Source of the DNA: an uncultured Pelagibacteraceae bacterium | GTDB lineage: Bacteria; Pseudomonadota; Alphaproteobacteria; Pelagibacterales; Pelagibacteraceae | Assembly (NCBI GenBank): GCA_902611405.1 | Contig: CACLZL010000009.1 | Span: 1-47,430, forward strand | Length of the DNA stretch: 47,430 nt | Reading direction: 5' to 3' | Shown here: piece by piece, positions 21,265 through 27,977 of the stretch | Layout of the letters: each line of letters begins with the position of its first letter | Position numbering within the stretch: the stretch's first letter is position 1 | Translations under genes and position numbers: made by a program | The notes under the pieces: generated by a model | Told to the model about the DNA's origin: nothing | The model's input: only the letters and a program-made list of their open reading frames with translations | Database searches by the model: none

Positions 21265-21957
21265 ATGAAAAAAAATTTTTTAAATATTGGAATCCCAAGC
21301 AAAGGTAGACTTAGAAAAGATGTTTTAAATATTTTTAAAAAAAATAAATTAAATCTTATTTCTGAAAGAGGAGAGAGAGATCTATTAGGATCAATAAAAC
21401 AATTTAAAAATATTAAGATTTTATATCTTCATGCAAGAGAGATTATCGAAAGACTTGGAGACGGATCTTTAGATATAGGTTTTTCTGGTTTTGATTTATT
21501 GAAAGAGAGTGAAATAAACACTCAAAAAAAAATTAATGTTTTAAAAAGATATAATTTTGGTAAGGCTACATTGGTGGTTGCAATTCCTGATCCATGGATA
21601 GATGTTCAAACAGTTGCAGATTTAGAGGAAATTGCATTTGAATTTAAAGATAAGAAAAAAAAAAGATTAAGAGTAGCAACAAAATATCCAAACCTAACAA
21701 GGGAATTTTTGTTTTCAAAGGGTGTTACTCAATTCAAATTAATTGATAGTTTGGGTGCAACTGAAGCTTATCCATTTACAGGTTCTGCGGAAATAATTAC
21801 AGATATCTCTTCTACTGGAGAAACATTAAAAGCAAATAACCTACGTATTTTAAAGGATGGAGAAATACTTAGATCAGAGGCTTGTATGATGATTTCTAAG
21901 TCATCAAGTAATAAAATGGGCCTTCAAAAAATAGTAAAGTTACTTTCTAAAAATTAA
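21265..21957 (+). CDS. hisG: ATP phosphoribosyltransferase, short form
   Basis: First enzyme of histidine synthesis, joining ATP and PRPP. At 230 residues it lacks the C-terminal regulatory domain of long HisG, which fits the need for HisZ encoded directly upstream. Motifs are IGIPSKGRLRKD at the N-terminus, the DIGFSGFDLL segment, and the PRPP loop EIITDISSTGETL (about residues 176-188). The 3' end overlaps by 18 nt a small convergent membrane-peptide ORF. Confidence 0.95.
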   Translation: MKKNFLNIGIPSKGRLRKDVLNIFKKNKLNLISERGERDLLGSIKQFKNIKILYLHAREIIERLGDGSLDIGFSGFDLLKESEINTQKKINVLKRYNFGKATLVVAIPDPWIDVQTVADLEEIAFEFKDKKKKRLRVATKYPNLTREFLFSKGVTQFKLIDSLGATEAYPFTGSAEIITDISSTGETLKANNLRILKDGEILRSEACMMISKSSSNKMGLQKIVKLLSKN

Positions 21958-22071
21958 GTCTTTCCAATAAATTAGTATAATTTTTATAATATTAAGGTTT
22001 CTACCTATTGCGTATAAAGTTACAATACCTACAATAACAAAGAATATTTTAATTATGAAAGATAATTCCAT
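21940..22071 (-). CDS. Small membrane peptide downstream of rmuC
   Basis: An ORF of 43 residues read directly from the minus strand, ATG 22071 to TAA 21940. Its translation starts MELSFIIKIFFVIVGIVTLY, followed by AIGRNLNIIKIILIYWKDLIFRK. This gives one strongly hydrophobic N-terminal helix and a second amphipathic hydrophobic segment with a basic end. I do not recognise it. It begins 4 nt after the rmuC stop, in the same direction, as expected for an operon partner, and it fills an otherwise empty gap. It overlaps hisG by 18 nt. With AT-rich DNA a hydrophobic ORF can arise by chance, so confidence is moderate. Confidence 0.5.
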   Translation of the reverse strand: MELSFIIKIFFVIVGIVTLYAIGRNLNIIKIILIYWKDLIFRK

Positions 22072-22075
22072 TTGA

Positions 22076-23245
22076 TTAGTTTAACTTATCTTTGTCTTCC
22101 TCTGGATCTGTAACTTCAGTAATATTTGCTTGCTCAGGTGGTATTTCAGGAATTTGTTTTCCAGGTATTACGCCATGCTCATCTTCAAGTTTTTTTATTT
22201 GCTTCTCTAATCCTTGTGAACCCCAAGATTTTGTAACTAGGCTTTGTAGTTGATTTGCATGAGTTTTATATGATTGAAGTGCTCCTTTAATTGCAGTTTT
22301 AACATCTGAATATTTATCAAATATCTTACTAGCAGAGGTTATGATTTTACTTATATTTTCAATTTGCTTCTTTTCACTTTTGATTTGTTCAAAAACCTTA
22401 ATCATATTTAACAGCTCAGTAGGGGACGATAAAATAAAGTTAGCTTTAAGAGCCTCTGTTTGAAGAGTTTTGTCTGCATCAAGTGTTACAGAATATAAGC
22501 TTGATGCTGGGAAAAAAACAATAACCGACTGTAAAGATTTTATTCCATATAGTTTGTTATAATTCTTCTTATTTAAACCTTTTGGTCCAAACAAGTGATT
22601 TCTAACTGATGCTATATGGTCTTTAAGATATTGTTTTTTTCGACTTTCATCTTTCTCATTAATATATTTTGTCCAATGAGTTAAAGACATTTTGGCATCA
22701 ATGATATAATTTCTCTCTGGAAATTTTACAAGCATATCAGGAATTACATCTTTCTCTTCATTACCTTCAATGTCATAAGTTGTCTGTTTTTTTTGTGGAA
22801 AAAAATCTCTATCTTTTACAAGATTTGCACTTTCTAAAAGATTTTCTAAAATTTCTTGATTAAATTTTCCTTGATATGTGATGTTAGTTGTAAGTTTTTC
22901 CCACCAATTCGTGTGTCGTGCTATTGCTTCATCATGTTTATTAATTGCTTTTTCAGAAATTGACTTGTATTCACCTACTCCTTCAACGATACCGTCAACT
23001 TTCTTATAAAGATTTGAAACCTCTAATTTTTTATCGTCAAGTTGTTTTTTTAAGTCTTTTTTTGCATCTTCTGCAGCTTTTATCTCTGCCTCTTTTGTAG
23101 CTAAATCTATTTGAGATTTTTTTAATTCTTCTTCTTTTAATTTCATTTCATCAATAGATGCTTGATTGCTTTTTGGTTTAAGTAAAAAAAACCAAACAAC
23201 ACCAAATGCTACAAAACCTACTATTACTCCTAAAATTGCTTCCAT
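22076..23245 (-). CDS. rmuC: RmuC family DNA recombination protein
   Basis: RmuC proteins limit recombination-driven rearrangements at inverted repeats and carry a nuclease-like fold. This 389-residue copy has one N-terminal membrane anchor (residues 2-21), a charged coiled-coil (about 30-85), and the RmuC domain with a PD-(D/E)XK-like core: IPDMLVKFPERNYIIDAKMSL (split by positions, about 166-186), GPKGLNKKNY and VIVFFPASSLYSVTL. The anchored coiled-coil layout is the family norm. It is divergent from the exonuclease gene at 23321 across 75 bp, so regulation may be shared. It forms part of a nuclease cluster (see findings). Confidence 0.93.
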   Translation of the reverse strand: MEAILGVIVGFVAFGVVWFFLLKPKSNQASIDEMKLKEEELKKSQIDLATKEAEIKAAEDAKKDLKKQLDDKKLEVSNLYKKVDGIVEGVGEYKSISEKAINKHDEAIARHTNWWEKLTTNITYQGKFNQEILENLLESANLVKDRDFFPQKKQTTYDIEGNEEKDVIPDMLVKFPERNYIIDAKMSLTHWTKYINEKDESRKKQYLKDHIASVRNHLFGPKGLNKKNYNKLYGIKSLQSVIVFFPASSLYSVTLDADKTLQTEALKANFILSSPTELLNMIKVFEQIKSEKKQIENISKIITSASKIFDKYSDVKTAIKGALQSYKTHANQLQSLVTKSWGSQGLEKQIKKLEDEHGVIPGKQIPEIPPEQANITEVTDPEEDKDKLN

Positions 23246-23320
23246 AATTTAATTTAAACTATTATCATATCTAGTAGATAATTATTAAACTTAATAGTAC
23301 AAGTTATCACCCGATTCATC

Positions 23321-24019
23321 ATGAAATGGAATAAAAAATATGACTACCCTACATCCTCAAGAGCAACTGTGGATGGAATTAGAAGATATCTTTTAGGTGA
23401 GAAAAAACTACCAAGTGTTACCTCAATACTAGATGCAACAAAATCAGAGGAAGATAAGGCTGCTCTTGCTAATTGGCGTGAAAGAACAGGTCAAAAAGAA
23501 GCTGAAGCGATAACAAAAGCAGCAAGTAGTAGAGGGTCTCAAATGCACAATTATTTAGAGTCTTACCTTTTGGGAAGAGAGAATTTAAGTTTTTTTGAGG
23601 AAAATGAACAATACAAAAAAATGGCTAAAGAGATAATTGATAAAGGATTAACAAATAGATTAGAGGAAATATGGGGAACTGAATGTACTCTTTATTATCC
23701 TGAAAAATATGCTGGCACTGCAGATTGTGTAGGAGTTTATGAGGGAAAAGAGACAATAATTGATTTTAAACAAAGTAATAAACCAAAAAAAATTGAGTAT
23801 ATAGATACTTGGTTGTTACAGACTGCAGCATATTCTCTTGCTCATAATATTGTGTATAATTCACAAATCGTTTCTTGTGTAATTTTAGTTTGCACTGTAG
23901 ATAATTTATTTCAAGAATTTAAAATTAAAGGCCCTGAATTAATAACCTATCAAAATTTATTTTTAGGAAGATTAAAAAAATTTCATGAGCTTTCAAATTT
24001 AAATCAAACACTTATATAG
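23321..24019 (+). CDS. PD-(D/E)XK exonuclease, MGME1-like
   Basis: A 232-residue predicted nuclease. LPSVTSILDATKSEED (residues 30-45), followed by LANWRERTG and SRGSQMHNYLESYL (about 69-82), matches the layout of mitochondrial genome maintenance exonuclease 1 and related phage and bacterial PD-(D/E)XK nucleases that trim single-stranded DNA ends. The catalytic core is GTADCVG followed by IIDFKQS (about residues 126-147), and a QTAAYSLAH helix completes the RecB-nuclease-like motif. The next gene, 6 nt downstream, is a 3'-5' exonuclease. The family assignment is from motif reading; the polarity of the activity is inferred. Confidence 0.8.
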   Translation: MKWNKKYDYPTSSRATVDGIRRYLLGEKKLPSVTSILDATKSEEDKAALANWRERTGQKEAEAITKAASSRGSQMHNYLESYLLGRENLSFFEENEQYKKMAKEIIDKGLTNRLEEIWGTECTLYYPEKYAGTADCVGVYEGKETIIDFKQSNKPKKIEYIDTWLLQTAAYSLAHNIVYNSQIVSCVILVCTVDNLFQEFKIKGPELITYQNLFLGRLKKFHELSNLNQTLI

Positions 24020-24025
24020 AAAATA

Positions 24026-25483
24026 ATGGATAAAATAGTAATTTATGATTATGAAACAACAAATAGCACTAATTGGGGATCTATAATTGAAGTTGGGGCA
24101 GTTGTAGTTGATAAAAATCTAAAAGAAATTGGAAAATTGAATATCAGAGGCAGAATGCCAGAGGGAGAAGTCCCAAGTGCGAAAGCATTACTTGTTAACT
24201 CAACCAGCATTGATCTATTAACAAAAGGTAATTATTCTCATTATGATTTTTTAGGTGCTCTTGAAAACTTCTTTTTAAAAGCAGGACCTTGTATGTTTAT
24301 AGGTTGGAACAATACAAACTTTGACAGATTTATGACTCAGCATAATTTTTTCAAAGGAAACCGCTATCCTTATATCACTCACTCTTCGCCCAATAGTGAA
24401 CATGACGGTATACACATAGCAAGAGCTGCTCAACTTTTAAATCCTGAAACTTTAAAAACAGGATTAACAGAAAAGGGTAATCCTTCATTTGCTTTAGAGT
24501 CTCTTGCAACAGCTCAAGGATTTGACACCACAAAACAACATACAGGATTTCATGATGCTTATACAAGTTGTAAAATTCTTAGAATCGTAAAAAGTAAACA
24601 TAAAAAAAATTGGGAAAAATTTTTAATAACTGCAACAAAAGCAGGATGTGAAACTCATTTGAAAAAAGAAGAAATATTCACAATAAATGAAATTATACAA
24701 GGAAAAGATTTTCCTTATCTTGTTAGCAATATGCATCCAAATCATAATTCTCACCTATTTCATAAAAAATCAAATGATAGATTTGTTTATGACTTAAGAA
24801 ATGATCCAGAGCCTTTATTAAATTTGAATATTAATGAGTTAAGATCTGTTTTAAGCAAAACTTCTCCAAAAATAATTAGAGTTTTAAAAATTAATAAAGC
24901 CCCGGTATTTTTAGATAAACAATGTGCGTTGGAATATAAATATCCTAAGGGAAATCCTTACACTAAACTTGGGCTTGAAGTAATTCAAAAAAGAGCAAAA
25001 ATTGTTAGAGAAAGTGAAAAGTTTTGTCAAAATATTCAGCTAATCTATAAAGAAATAGAAGAGGAGAAAGAACAAACCAAATCCCAAGAAGATTTATTAC
25101 CTGAAGAAACTTTATATGAAAAATTTATTCCAAATAAAGATACAGCTTTGTTTAAAACTTGGCACAGTTCTTCTTGGGAAGATAAGTTAAGAATGTTGGA
25201 TAAGTTTCAAGATAAAAGATGTAGTTGGTTTGGCCAAAAAATTATCTACCAGGAAGCACCACATATTTTGCCACCAGATTTATATAAGAATATTAAAAGT
25301 GAAATTGCTAGACGAATATTAAGCAAAAATAAAGAGAAATGGCAGACAATAGGCATGGCCTATAATGAAATTGATACTCTTAGAAATCAAGCAGACAATA
25401 GGGATGATGAAGAAGAACTAAAAAAATTAGATGAAATAAATGAATTTATTATGTCTATAGAAAAAAAATATGAAATTGCCTAG
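24026..25483 (+). CDS. Exodeoxyribonuclease I-like DEDDh exonuclease
   Basis: A 485-residue homologue of exonuclease I (SbcB), a 3'-5' single-stranded DNA exonuclease. It contains Exo I IVIYDYETTN (residues 4-13), Exo II IGWNNTNFDRFMT (about 92-104), and Exo III TGFHDAYTSCKI (about 177-188), with the DEDDh His-Asp pair. The remaining half matches the SH3-like and helical C-terminal region in length. E. coli ExoI is about 475 residues. It follows the MGME1-like nuclease by 6 nt, and precedes thioredoxin by 34 nt. Confidence 0.82.
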   Translation: MDKIVIYDYETTNSTNWGSIIEVGAVVVDKNLKEIGKLNIRGRMPEGEVPSAKALLVNSTSIDLLTKGNYSHYDFLGALENFFLKAGPCMFIGWNNTNFDRFMTQHNFFKGNRYPYITHSSPNSEHDGIHIARAAQLLNPETLKTGLTEKGNPSFALESLATAQGFDTTKQHTGFHDAYTSCKILRIVKSKHKKNWEKFLITATKAGCETHLKKEEIFTINEIIQGKDFPYLVSNMHPNHNSHLFHKKSNDRFVYDLRNDPEPLLNLNINELRSVLSKTSPKIIRVLKINKAPVFLDKQCALEYKYPKGNPYTKLGLEVIQKRAKIVRESEKFCQNIQLIYKEIEEEKEQTKSQEDLLPEETLYEKFIPNKDTALFKTWHSSSWEDKLRMLDKFQDKRCSWFGQKIIYQEAPHILPPDLYKNIKSEIARRILSKNKEKWQTIGMAYNEIDTLRNQADNRDDEEELKKLDEINEFIMSIEKKYEIA

Positions 25484-25517
25484 TTGACTTTAGAGCCGTA
25501 ATTTATAGAAGAGTAAC

Positions 25518-25832
25518 ATGATTAATGAGTTTTTAGACGAGAATTTAGAAAAAATAAAAGAGGAACCCGTAACTGTAAATATTATGAGTGCCTCTTGGTG
25601 TGCGCCCTGCAAGAGTCTCAAAATTGTTATGGACAAACTTTCTGAGGAATACAAAGATAGAGCAACTTTCTACAGAGGTGATGTTGAAGAAGGCGCTATA
25701 AATTTTGCATCCAGTATTGGAGTCCGGGGAGTGCCAACCACTACGATTATGAAGAAGGGTGTAGAAATTGATAGAATGGTAGGTAATCCAGGGGAAGCGA
25801 AGGTTAAAGAATTTTTAGACAAAAACCTTTAA
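25518..25832 (+). CDS. trxA: Thioredoxin
   Basis: A 104-residue thioredoxin fold with redox site SASWCAPCKSL (WCAPC rather than the commoner WCGPC, about residues 27-31) and the cis-proline loop RGVPTTTIMKKG. No signal peptide, so it is cytoplasmic. In alphaproteobacteria trxA usually lies beside folC-accD, as here. The symbol is given from that context; a more specialised thioredoxin-like role remains possible. Its end overlaps folC by 4 nt in convergent orientation. Confidence 0.88.
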   Translation: MINEFLDENLEKIKEEPVTVNIMSASWCAPCKSLKIVMDKLSEEYKDRATFYRGDVEEGAINFASSIGVRGVPTTTIMKKGVEIDRMVGNPGEAKVKEFLDKNL

Positions 25833-27094
25833 TTTAAATTTAACACTTCAGCAGCTCCGTACAAAGACCCTGTTATAAGCAAAAGATCTCCTTCTTTTAA
25901 ATCAATTGATTTAATTGCTTGCTTGATATCTGGTTGATATTTAACATTGGGTATACTCTTAAATTTCTCTTTCAAATCTTTTCCACTAATTGAATTTGGT
26001 TGAGTTTTTAAATCTATAGTAGTTATGGAAGAAATATCTTTGAAGTAACTTATATATTTTTCATGTTCCTTATTTGCCATCATTCCAATAATAATATGTT
26101 TGTTGCAATCCAAGCTTTGAAGATATTCATTTAATGCTTTAGCACCACCTTCGTTATGGCTTCCGTCTACTATAAATCTATTATTTTTAACTAATTCTTT
26201 TAATTTACCAGATTTAATTTCCTGAAGTCTAGCTAAGCTAGATATATTTTTAATACCTTTTTTTATGTGTTCATCCCTAATCTCAAGATCTAAAGTTCTA
26301 AGAGTTGCTATTGCAGTAGATATATTTTCTAATTGATATTGACCAAGCACATTAGGCATAGGAAGTTTTAATCCACCAAATTTATCTTCATAGTAGAGGA
26401 AATCATTTTCATTAACTGAGTAACTAAAATCATCATTAAAAAAAACTTTATTAGATTTATTTTGAGAGATAGTTTTTTTTATACAATCCATCGTCTCATT
26501 AGTGCTTTGTTTAGCTACAATAATATTTGAATTTAAAAGTGTAGATGTTTTTTCAAATACAATTTGTTCGATTGTTTGTTTATCCTTTGGAAGCCAATCT
26601 AGATGATCTTTGCTTATGGATGTAACAATGCTTGCGAGATTAGTTTCTAGAATATTCACAGCATCAAAACGATGAAACAAGCCGCTTTCTATTAAGTTAA
26701 TGTTACCTGGATATTTTGCTGCTTTATAAAAAAAGCAAGCCGATAACATCTCAAACACTGTGATTGGTTGATTATTATTAATTTTTTCAACATCTTCCAA
26801 TAAATCAGCTAACTCATCATCTTTTAATTCCTTGTTGCTGAAAATAAACCTTTCATTAATTTTTTGAATATGTGGACTTGTGTAAACATTACATTCGAAA
26901 TTTGCTTCTTTAAGAATTGAATAAGCAGCTTGAATTGTAGAATTTTTACCATTAGTTCCTACAATCGATATTGCTTTAATTTTGTTTTGTGGATTTCCTA
27001 GTTTTTCACAAAGATTTTTAATTCTATCAGTTGATAGGTCTATTTCTTTAGGATGCAACTTTTGAAAGTTGCTGAGAATCTTCTGAAGTTTCAT
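25829..27094 (-). CDS. folC: Bifunctional dihydrofolate/folylpolyglutamate synthase
   Basis: Joins glutamate to dihydropteroate and elongates folate tails. The roughly 421-residue product starts MKLQKILSNFQKLHPKEIDL, as FolC proteins do, then the ATP loop GTNGKNST (canonical GTNGKGST), the YTSPHIQKINERF segment, the VTSISKDHLDW motif, and DGSHNEGGA near the C-terminal domain. It has a long 47-nt out-of-frame overlap with accD; the N-terminal HPKxIDLS motif makes a much later start unlikely. It is the last gene of the long minus-strand run. Confidence 0.93.
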   Translation of the reverse strand: MKLQKILSNFQKLHPKEIDLSTDRIKNLCEKLGNPQNKIKAISIVGTNGKNSTIQAAYSILKEANFECNVYTSPHIQKINERFIFSNKELKDDELADLLEDVEKINNNQPITVFEMLSACFFYKAAKYPGNINLIESGLFHRFDAVNILETNLASIVTSISKDHLDWLPKDKQTIEQIVFEKTSTLLNSNIIVAKQSTNETMDCIKKTISQNKSNKVFFNDDFSYSVNENDFLYYEDKFGGLKLPMPNVLGQYQLENISTAIATLRTLDLEIRDEHIKKGIKNISSLARLQEIKSGKLKELVKNNRFIVDGSHNEGGAKALNEYLQSLDCNKHIIIGMMANKEHEKYISYFKDISSITTIDLKTQPNSISGKDLKEKFKSIPNVKYQPDIKQAIKSIDLKEGDLLLITGSLYGAAEVLNLN

Positions 27095-27977
27095 TTTGTT
27101 CAGCACTTATATCAGAATTCTTCTTTAACAATATTGATAATAAAGTTCCAATTTTAGATGCAAGATCTTTACGCTCAACAATTAAATCGACAAAACCAGT
27201 TTTTTCAACATATTCACTTTTTTGAAATCCTTCAGGAAGTTCTTCTTTAACAGTTCCTTGAATTACTCTTGCACCTGCAAATGCAATTAAAGCTCCTGGT
27301 TCAGCAATATGAATATCACCTAACATAGCGTATGATGCAGTGATACCCCCTGCTGTTGGATCAGTGATGCAAACTAAATACGGAAGTCCACTTTTTTTTA
27401 ATTCATTAATTGCAAGTGTTGTTCTTGTCATTTGAGATAATGATATTAAACTTTCCATCATTCTCATACCCCCACCAGCGCTAATGCATAAAAAAGGTGT
27501 TCGATTTTCTATTGCATGTTGTATTCCATATAAAAAAGCTTCACCTTCTGCAGCTGCCATAGAAGCTCCTAAAAAATCAAAATCAGAAGCTACAGCGGTA
27601 ATTTTAATGTTATTTATAGTTCCAGAAGCAACCATCATTCCACATTCTAATCCTGTTTTTTTCCGAGCACTTTTTAATCTTTCTTTGTAGGGTTTAGAAT
27701 CTGTCCAATTCAATGGATCGTCCTTTGGTATCGGAGTTTTGAAAATCTCGTAATTGTTTTTTCCAAACAATATATCAAATCTTTGATGTGGCTTAATTCT
27801 ATGATGACGCTTACAATCTGGACAAACCCACAAGTTTTCCTCTAAATCTTTTTTTAAAATTGGACCCTTACAACATGATGTCCAGTCACTTTTTGCAATA
27901 TCTTCTTTTGTAGCTCTTTCACGTATTGCAGTTTTAATTTTTTCACCTGCTCTAATTAACTTTGTTAACCAATTCAT
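27048..27977 (-). CDS. accD: Acetyl-CoA carboxylase carboxyltransferase subunit beta
   Basis: With AccA it transfers carboxyl from biotin carrier protein to acetyl-CoA, the first step of fatty acid synthesis. The 309-residue product has an N-terminal cysteine region (SCCKGPILKKDL then VCPDCKRHH) that would be the zinc finger; its first pair is adjacent CC rather than CxxC. The crotonase-like core contains ISAGGGMRMMES and CITDPTAGGITASYAMLGDI and GARVIQ. It sits 3 nt after trpA and overlaps folC, the common trpFBA-accD-folC order. Confidence 0.96.
   Translation of the reverse strand: MNWLTKLIRAGEKIKTAIRERATKEDIAKSDWTSCCKGPILKKDLEENLWVCPDCKRHHRIKPHQRFDILFGKNNYEIFKTPIPKDDPLNWTDSKPYKERLKSARKKTGLECGMMVASGTINNIKITAVASDFDFLGASMAAAEGEAFLYGIQHAIENRTPFLCISAGGGMRMMESLISLSQMTRTTLAINELKKSGLPYLVCITDPTAGGITASYAMLGDIHIAEPGALIAFAGARVIQGTVKEELPEGFQKSEYVEKTGFVDLIVERKDLASKIGTLLSILLKKNSDISAEQNETSEDSQQLSKVAS

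Follow-up and report, generated by a model that had tools for sequence, protein, structure and literature searches.

A phage-type MGME1-like exonuclease in the addAB slot of Pelagibacteraceae: a candidate stand-in for RecJ

SAR11 bacteria are described in passages of PMC4285135 as the ocean's most abundant heterotrophs, and the relevant sections of PMC12374537 report that RecBCD is absent in two SAR11 clades, that MutSL is absent, and that RecF is absent in Ca. P. ubique and subclade Ic. RecOR is proposed there for RecA loading, and no end-processing nuclease is named in that section. Here we describe a locus of an uncultured Pelagibacteraceae bacterium that offers a candidate stand-in for RecJ, bearing on how SAR11 starts recombination, and that shows the refilling of an addAB slot. 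It lies in a stretch of 47,430 nucleotides (the window), which is contig CACLZL010000009.1 (C9) of the 39-contig, 1.22-Mb assembly GCA_902611405.1, and it holds a phage-type MGME1-like exonuclease beside an exonuclease I (ExoI) homologue. We lean towards the reading in which this exonuclease stands in for RecJ and so permits RecJ loss. In the open literature, part of it available as excerpts, we found no paper that deals, for SAR11, with the loss of RecJ, with ExoI or with genes of the MGME1 kind, and those mentioning both SAR11 and recJ do not address the matter.

Several described systems resemble the locus in part. With human MGME1, the exonuclease of the window shares its predicted fold and five aligned catalytic residues, whereas identity is only about 25% and the window gene is bacterial and chromosomal, adjoins exonuclease I and has its nearest non-host relatives in phages. 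It is homologous across nearly its whole length to the phrog_298 phage exonucleases, such as those of pelagiphages HTVC023P and HTVC027P, but the copies in host genomes group apart as a clade of their own and have a fixed place on the chromosome. RecJ belongs to a different fold family, DHH, and what the MGME1-like enzyme would have in common with it is a predicted role, the trimming of single strands from the 5' end during repair that depends on RecA; our claim is one of a functional stand-in, not of membership. AddAB has the same chromosomal slot, and a weak TIGR02784 match links it to the window set, but this set has no helicase domains and no addA or addB gene was found in the genome. Reverse-transcriptase-associated RmuC and SbcB share PADLOC profile matches with the window genes, and Shield (ShdA) shares the RmuC domain; unlike these, the window genes stand order-wide at a conserved slot.

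An MGME1-like exonuclease of phage type

The argument concerns the following features, given in window coordinates with lengths in amino acids (aa) or base pairs (bp).

22076..23245, minus strand: RmuC of the inverted, rarer type, 389 aa (PF02646 137.5 bits, cut-off 26), with a PD...DAK motif
23246..23320, no strand: divergent intergenic region of 75 bp, read directly
23321..24019, plus strand: predicted MGME1-like PD-(D/E)XK exonuclease of phage type, 232 aa (phrog_298, human MGME1)
24026..25483, plus strand: exonuclease I (SbcB) homologue, 485 aa (PF08411 57.6 bits, cut-off 27; PDB ExoI)

An earlier interpretation made from the letters alone (the sequence-only reading) had described these genes together with their spacing, and its account of the arrangement is accurate: besides the divergent region, there are gaps of 4 nucleotides at 22072-22075, between a 43-aa open reading frame (ORF) and RmuC, and of 6 nucleotides at 24020-24025, between the exonuclease and ExoI.

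The 232-aa protein matches the phrog_298 exonuclease profile at E 4.9e-47 over residues 7-222 of 232, nearly its full length, and the human MGME1 sequence at E 1.3e-11. The likeness to MGME1 was also found by structure prediction, as had been suggested. The AlphaFold model, built from 45 sequences, has a predicted local distance difference test score (pLDDT) of 92.6, and in a Foldseek search of the PDB its top nine matches were all human MGME1 (best E 2.7e-13; template modelling scores 0.74/0.86). Residues H76, E121, D135, D148 and K150 do not vary across 20 sequences from hosts and phages, nor across a set of 45, and align (offset 90, counted by hand) with His180, Glu223, Asp238, Asp251 and Lys253 of MGME1, residues named in the excerpted text of PMC6237815. 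The protein misses the gathering score of PDDEXK_1 (PF12705), with 15.9 bits against 22, and its similarity to the nuclease part at the end of AddA is weak (TIGR02784, E 0.013) and far under the cut-off.

Among the 197 Pelagibacterales genomes searched, the gene is present in 108 of the 117 from the window's genus and absent from the 80 others, save one doubtful fragment in G087 (contig C25). We did not accept this match as a real copy outside the genus: it covers 45 residues in a 64%-complete bin of another family and is probably contamination; the ExoI of G087 is 75% identical to that of the window. In 40 of 48 loci the MGME1-like gene lies at most 200 bp from ExoI on the same strand, and in the remaining eight either RmuC stands between the two (five loci) or ExoI is inverted (three). 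Nine genomes of the genus are without the gene. In five of these the stretch is missing or cut, and in G024, G044, G103 and G184 the gene is absent although the locus is assembled. Among the genomes with none of the three nuclease genes, neither G078, G101, G162 and G163, in which accD is missing too and the stretch is therefore probably unassembled, nor G150 and G129, in which the assembly stops inside the locus, were counted as true losses.

Relatives of the MGME1-like protein were found by tblastn in 881 phage records, of which the best are those of seawater phage 023Pt_psg01 and pelagiphages HTVC023P and HTVC027P (43-45% identity); viral contigs reach up to 53%. In a tree built by a 'quick' method from 48 of the 108 host genes and 91 phage or viral rows, all 48 host rows form one clade, with 100 in the Shimodaira-Hasegawa-like approximate likelihood ratio test. 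This clade is nested among marine viral rows when more distant phages are used as root, and the branches just outside it have moderate support (84-86). Since the host clade sits within phage exonucleases, one phage capture is the simplest reading, and the host genes are likely to derive from such a single event.

RecJ status follows the type of the cassette

RecJ is listed among the essential genes of Caulobacter, an alphaproteobacterium, in part of PMC3973325, and its loss thus needs explaining. The sequence-only reading had suggested a search for recJ, and it is RecJ, not AddAB, that the cassette of MGME1-like gene and ExoI tracks. Scored by TIGR00644 with E up to 0.001, RecJ occurs in 22 of the 117 genomes of the genus vs 72 of the 80 others (Fisher p 1e-24, kinship not corrected for). 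It was not found in the window's genome nor in 94 more of the genus (95/117), and G003, G015 and G020, which are single-contig genomes estimated to be 99% complete, were likewise negative. At the RecJ site, the neighbours that we call B and P abut in RecJ-less G003, G015, G048 and G066; in eight genomes of the genus that have RecJ, they stand on either side of it. The far side of the site differs in G144. In G003 the cassette lies at 209 kb and the RecJ site near 672 kb, about 460 kb apart.

Other end-processing genes are missing as well. XseA (exonuclease VII, ExoVII) was found in none of the 117 genomes of the genus vs 52 of the 80 others; it is also missing from genera g5 and g6, so its loss may predate the MGME1-like gene. 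RecQ exceeded the cut-off in none of the 197 genomes, and weaker matches were not accepted as RecQ, as they mostly fall in frames of a size that we take to be that of RecG. Most genomes of the genus are left, among the families tested, with just two single-strand exonucleases, ExoI and the MGME1-like protein.

The association is with the type of the MGME1-like gene. RecJ is present in 0 of the 27 rows of the MGME1 clade to which the window belongs vs 17 of the 21 in other host clades, and in 0 of the 50 genomes whose protein is at least 80% identical to that of the window vs 20 of 58 others. In a set of 36 genomes, where cassette type and RecJ status agree in 35, the fewest RecJ changes required are 2 on the MGME1 tree and 4 on the ExoI tree vs 7 on folC, 8 on accD and 8 on rpoB. 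An earlier set of 44 genomes gave 3, 3, 9 and 8 changes for MGME1, ExoI, folC and accD, and 38 of those 44 gave 6 on hisG vs 2 on MGME1; an accD+folC tree of 77 genomes from both families needs 13. The smaller set differs from the larger by four genomes without an rpoB match and by G052, G177, G181 and G185, whose rpoB is cut or split; the partial rpoB of G131 was kept. Pairwise distances correlate at 0.85 between MGME1 and ExoI, 0.80 between rpoB and folC and 0.72 between rpoB and accD, vs 0.46 between MGME1 and rpoB and 0.39 between MGME1 and its close neighbour folC. MGME1 and ExoI diverge in step with each other but not with the genes around them, and RecJ status goes with their type, so the two genes were probably exchanged together, inside flanks that are conserved.

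Several observations weigh against a replacement of RecJ by this enzyme. RecJ is retained in 20 of the 108 MGME1-positive genomes of the genus, so the presence of an MGME1-like gene alone does not predict RecJ loss, and we dropped the idea that the two strictly exclude each other. Conversely, G103 and G184 have neither gene although the locus is assembled; both encode at this locus a protein of about 1124 residues, and the one in G184 has helicase, RNase H-like and Cas4-like domains. Four further genomes without RecJ (G028, G040, G082 and G122) carry other MGME1 types. Most genomes are drafts, that of the window itself being an estimated 88% complete, and human MGME1, at about 25% identity, is a distant functional model for an activity that is predicted. 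On well-supported rpoB branches there are just 3 independent contrasts, of which 2.8 on average go in the predicted direction and none in the opposite one, a comparison of low power (sign test p 0.25). Moreover, the genus is not one clade on the accD+folC tree, where G184, G103, G159, G024, G082 and G040 group with other genera, which points to a mixed history of the genes or of the genus. Finally, recombination is heavy in SAR11, and the two traits could share a line of descent that the rpoB tree does not capture.

A rival explanation is common ancestry alone: RecJ loss and cassette type would be inherited on the true phylogeny, with rpoB, folC and accD scrambled and without any functional link. 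The clustering of RecJ-negative genomes on every tree and the small number of supported contrasts suit it, as does the promiscuous recombination argued for SAR11 in parts of PMC12374537. However, rpoB agrees with folC and accD, the neighbours of the cassette, and none of these three agrees with MGME1 or ExoI, so it is the cassette that looks like the mobile part. We consider ancestry alone unlikely, though it deserves to be taken seriously.

RmuC, exonuclease I and defence genes at the locus

The genes around the cassette are as follows.

21265..21957, plus strand: hisG (PF01634 E 1.1e-36), left border of the variable interval
21940..22071, minus strand: 43-aa ORF, presumably of membrane character, which goes with hisG and not with RmuC
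25518..25832, plus strand: thioredoxin gene, trx (PF00085), right border; the gene after addA in other alphaproteobacteria
25829..27106, minus strand: ORF that we take to be folC (Mur ligase domains over cut-off)
27048..27977, minus strand: ORF that we take to be accD, kept in related loci

ExoI is present in 185 and RmuC in 182 of the 197 genomes, both in all 10 genera, and ExoI in 113 of the 117 genomes of the window's genus. Outside the genus the two overlap or lie at most 13 bp apart on one strand in 23 of 26 measured genomes. RmuC comes first in family f1 (RmuC-ExoI) and second in f2 (ExoI-RmuC), and in most genomes trx-folC-accD adjoins the pair. The window's ExoI scores 121.7 bits against the 260 of the NCBIfam exodeoxyribonuclease I equivalog and 21.4 against the RNase_T gathering score of 24, and is thus a divergent homologue; the window's RmuC likewise misses the NCBIfam RmuC equivalog (109.3 vs 810).

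We compared 80 named loci, the best 80 of 288 relatives, among which the closest kin are over-represented. The nearest named relatives are genomes of uncultured Pelagibacteraceae, many obtained from single cells, which places the window in SAR11. RmuC stands on the plus strand before the MGME1-like gene in 59 of them and on the minus strand, as in the window, in 17; three loci end too early and L056 is without RmuC. Further types occur at other positions (L158-L163, L171). The minus-strand RmuC, which the sequence-only reading had made the divergent partner of the set, is consequently not a fixed member of it. Nor is the 43-aa peptide, which had been grouped with RmuC, a partner of that protein: hisG is the left neighbour in 66 of the 80 loci, and the ORF accompanies it in 50 of these 66, whichever kind of RmuC is present. 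In the common plus-strand type a histidine replaces the motif lysine (VDSH, seen in 40 of 87 RmuC rows of all kinds), which may alter nuclease activity, while the inverted type of the window retains PD...DAK. An example of the VDSH form is at L038 7872-8963, with its relatives.

Defence genes do occur at this locus. Between hisG and RmuC, L027 (4957-7764) holds a cytosine methylase and a Bsp6I-like endonuclease, and beside the cassette lie PbeA in L159 (11979-14099) and, resembling DISARM, DrmA with an MZB-domain protein in L158 (11886-17350). In PADLOC, the window's RmuC matches RTasRmuC (E 9.6e-37) and its ExoI matches RTasSbcB. These matches hint that RmuC and ExoI cooperate elsewhere too. 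As for Shield, which according to part of PMC10270631 employs an RmuC domain against phages, the window protein has this domain and its PADLOC match is to RTasRmuC. All this would fit a locus in which RmuC, ExoI and the MGME1-like nuclease degrade incoming DNA, the slot being an anti-phage hotspot. We regard this as improbable: the MGME1-like gene and ExoI are near-universal in the genus and RmuC-ExoI is found order-wide, 62 of the 66 loci with hisG have no further ORF of at least 70 aa between it and the MGME1-like gene, and the common plus-strand RmuC carries a histidine at the motif lysine.

On the minus strand, L153 (4128-7502) and L158 (3495-6857) each encode a protein of some 1120 residues that has RNase_H_2 and AAA_11/12 helicase domains. 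The protein of L153 is also Cas4-like, and such a protein occurs in a genome without the MGME1-like gene too; G024, G103 and G184 all have a protein of this size and no MGME1-like gene. It cannot be taken as a regular alternative to that gene, as L158 holds both. Beside the inverted RmuC in L029 (6757-8006) and L036 (1100-5309) there are short ORFs (86-91 aa) as well as larger proteins, of 203, 337 and 456 aa, the larger ones having no Pfam or PADLOC match.

The addAB slot and a proposed course of events

The sequence-only reading had placed the cluster in the slot where addAB is often found, and the comparison across SAR11 and other alphaproteobacteria confirmed this conserved neighbourhood. 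The thioredoxin gene adjoins addA in 28 of 30 AddA loci examined, which were the highest-scoring. In 20 wider stretches, where ORFs were picked mechanically, with genes missed in some, and addB was assigned by size and position, the order tsaE-amgK-murU-addB-addA-trx was found in L236, L237, L248 and L251, murU-addB-addA-trx-folC-accD in L244, and folC-accD with no trx picked in L235; the names tsaE, amgK and murU are our assumption from the protein sequences. Given the thioredoxin gene beside addA and the shared gene order, the window locus is the addAB slot. In family f9, outside the order, L227 and L229 read tsaE-amgK-murU-ExoI-trx-folC-accD, with ExoI exactly at the position of addBA.

AddA itself, whose absence had been the first thing to check, exceeded the curated cut-off in none of the 197 Pelagibacterales genomes, and PF12705, the AddB nuclease domain, had no match in the window's own genome, the only one searched for it. 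The AddA-like matches in the order (E 1e-4 to 1e-17) were rejected as far under the cut-off; they lie mostly in frames of 660-755 residues, presumably UvrD/PcrA by their size. Across the class, AddA is over the cut-off in 108 of 144 genomes, with several more clear but lower-scoring, while ExoI (PF08411) is rare (9/144, 8 over cut-off). ExoI occurs in 5 of the 10 genomes scored AddA-less vs 4 of the 134 others (Fisher p 6e-5, kinship not corrected for), AddA-less meaning a best E weaker than 1e-15, so that five genomes at E 1e-35 to 1e-55 counted as positive. Two SAR11 and two f9 genomes are among these five with ExoI, and no ExoI was found with PF08411 in the other five. ExoI is not confined to the addAB slot, since G221 has it elsewhere (L228), and in three genomes of the class it occurs alongside AddA; the ExoI tree leaves undecided whether f9 and SAR11 gained it once or twice.

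The best reading is that RmuC-ExoI took the AddAB slot order-wide. AddAB is absent throughout the order and the MGME1-like gene is confined to one genus, so the loss of AddAB most likely predates that gene. It is likely that RmuC-ExoI replaced AddAB across the order and that the phage-type exonuclease later made RecJ dispensable in a single genus. Our model suggests the following course. AddA was not found in the order, and the position that addBA holds elsewhere, ahead of trx-folC-accD, is occupied by RmuC and ExoI. A phage MGME1-like exonuclease would have been captured once; RecJ would have been lost in most genomes of the genus, its neighbours abutting in the four RecJ-less genomes examined, and ExoVII was not found in the genus; and the MGME1-like gene and ExoI would have been swapped as a unit, RecJ status following the type. 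During repair UvrD, RecG or another helicase might unwind the ends, RecQ not being found. Like human MGME1, the MGME1-like enzyme would act on single-stranded ends of either polarity, 5' or 3', and on flaps, whereas ExoI would trim 3' ends; RecA would be fed via the RecOR route, and RmuC would serve as a membrane-tethered accessory of varying type. A caution is that ExoI counteracts recombination in recBC mutants of E. coli; here it may blunt or clear ends rather than produce a RecA substrate. We hold more tentatively, as a sizeable possibility short of a probable one, that a phage exonuclease domesticated once formed with ExoI an exchangeable cassette that replaced both AddAB and RecJ, its type deciding whether RecJ is retained.

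If the stand-in for RecJ is real, bacterial recombination would here start without RecBCD/AddAB, RecJ, RecQ or ExoVII, and a phage nuclease with a distant relative in human mitochondria would have turned into a core repair gene.

A joint replacement of AddAB by RmuC, the MGME1-like nuclease and ExoI, although the slot is the same, AddA was not found and ExoI stands alone between murU and trx in L227 and L229 outside the order, is very improbable, because AddA was not found in ten genera and the MGME1-like gene only in one (plus the doubtful fragment), so that RmuC-ExoI stood in the slot before that gene came. The proposal that the three nucleases form a set replacing AddAB therefore holds for the slot and for the missing AddA (0/197) but not for a single set, as their histories are separate. 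Separate distribution of the two plus-strand genes had been named in advance as evidence against this idea, and it is what we found, with ExoI in 10 genera and the MGME1-like gene in one; overall, the earlier interpretation is partly supported.

The thioredoxin gene of the window (25518-25832) is an unusual allele: no trx match in the 80 named loci exceeds 66% identity to it. L025 illustrates this: its trx is at most 66% identical to that of the window, yet its ExoI is 99% and its folC 95% identical.

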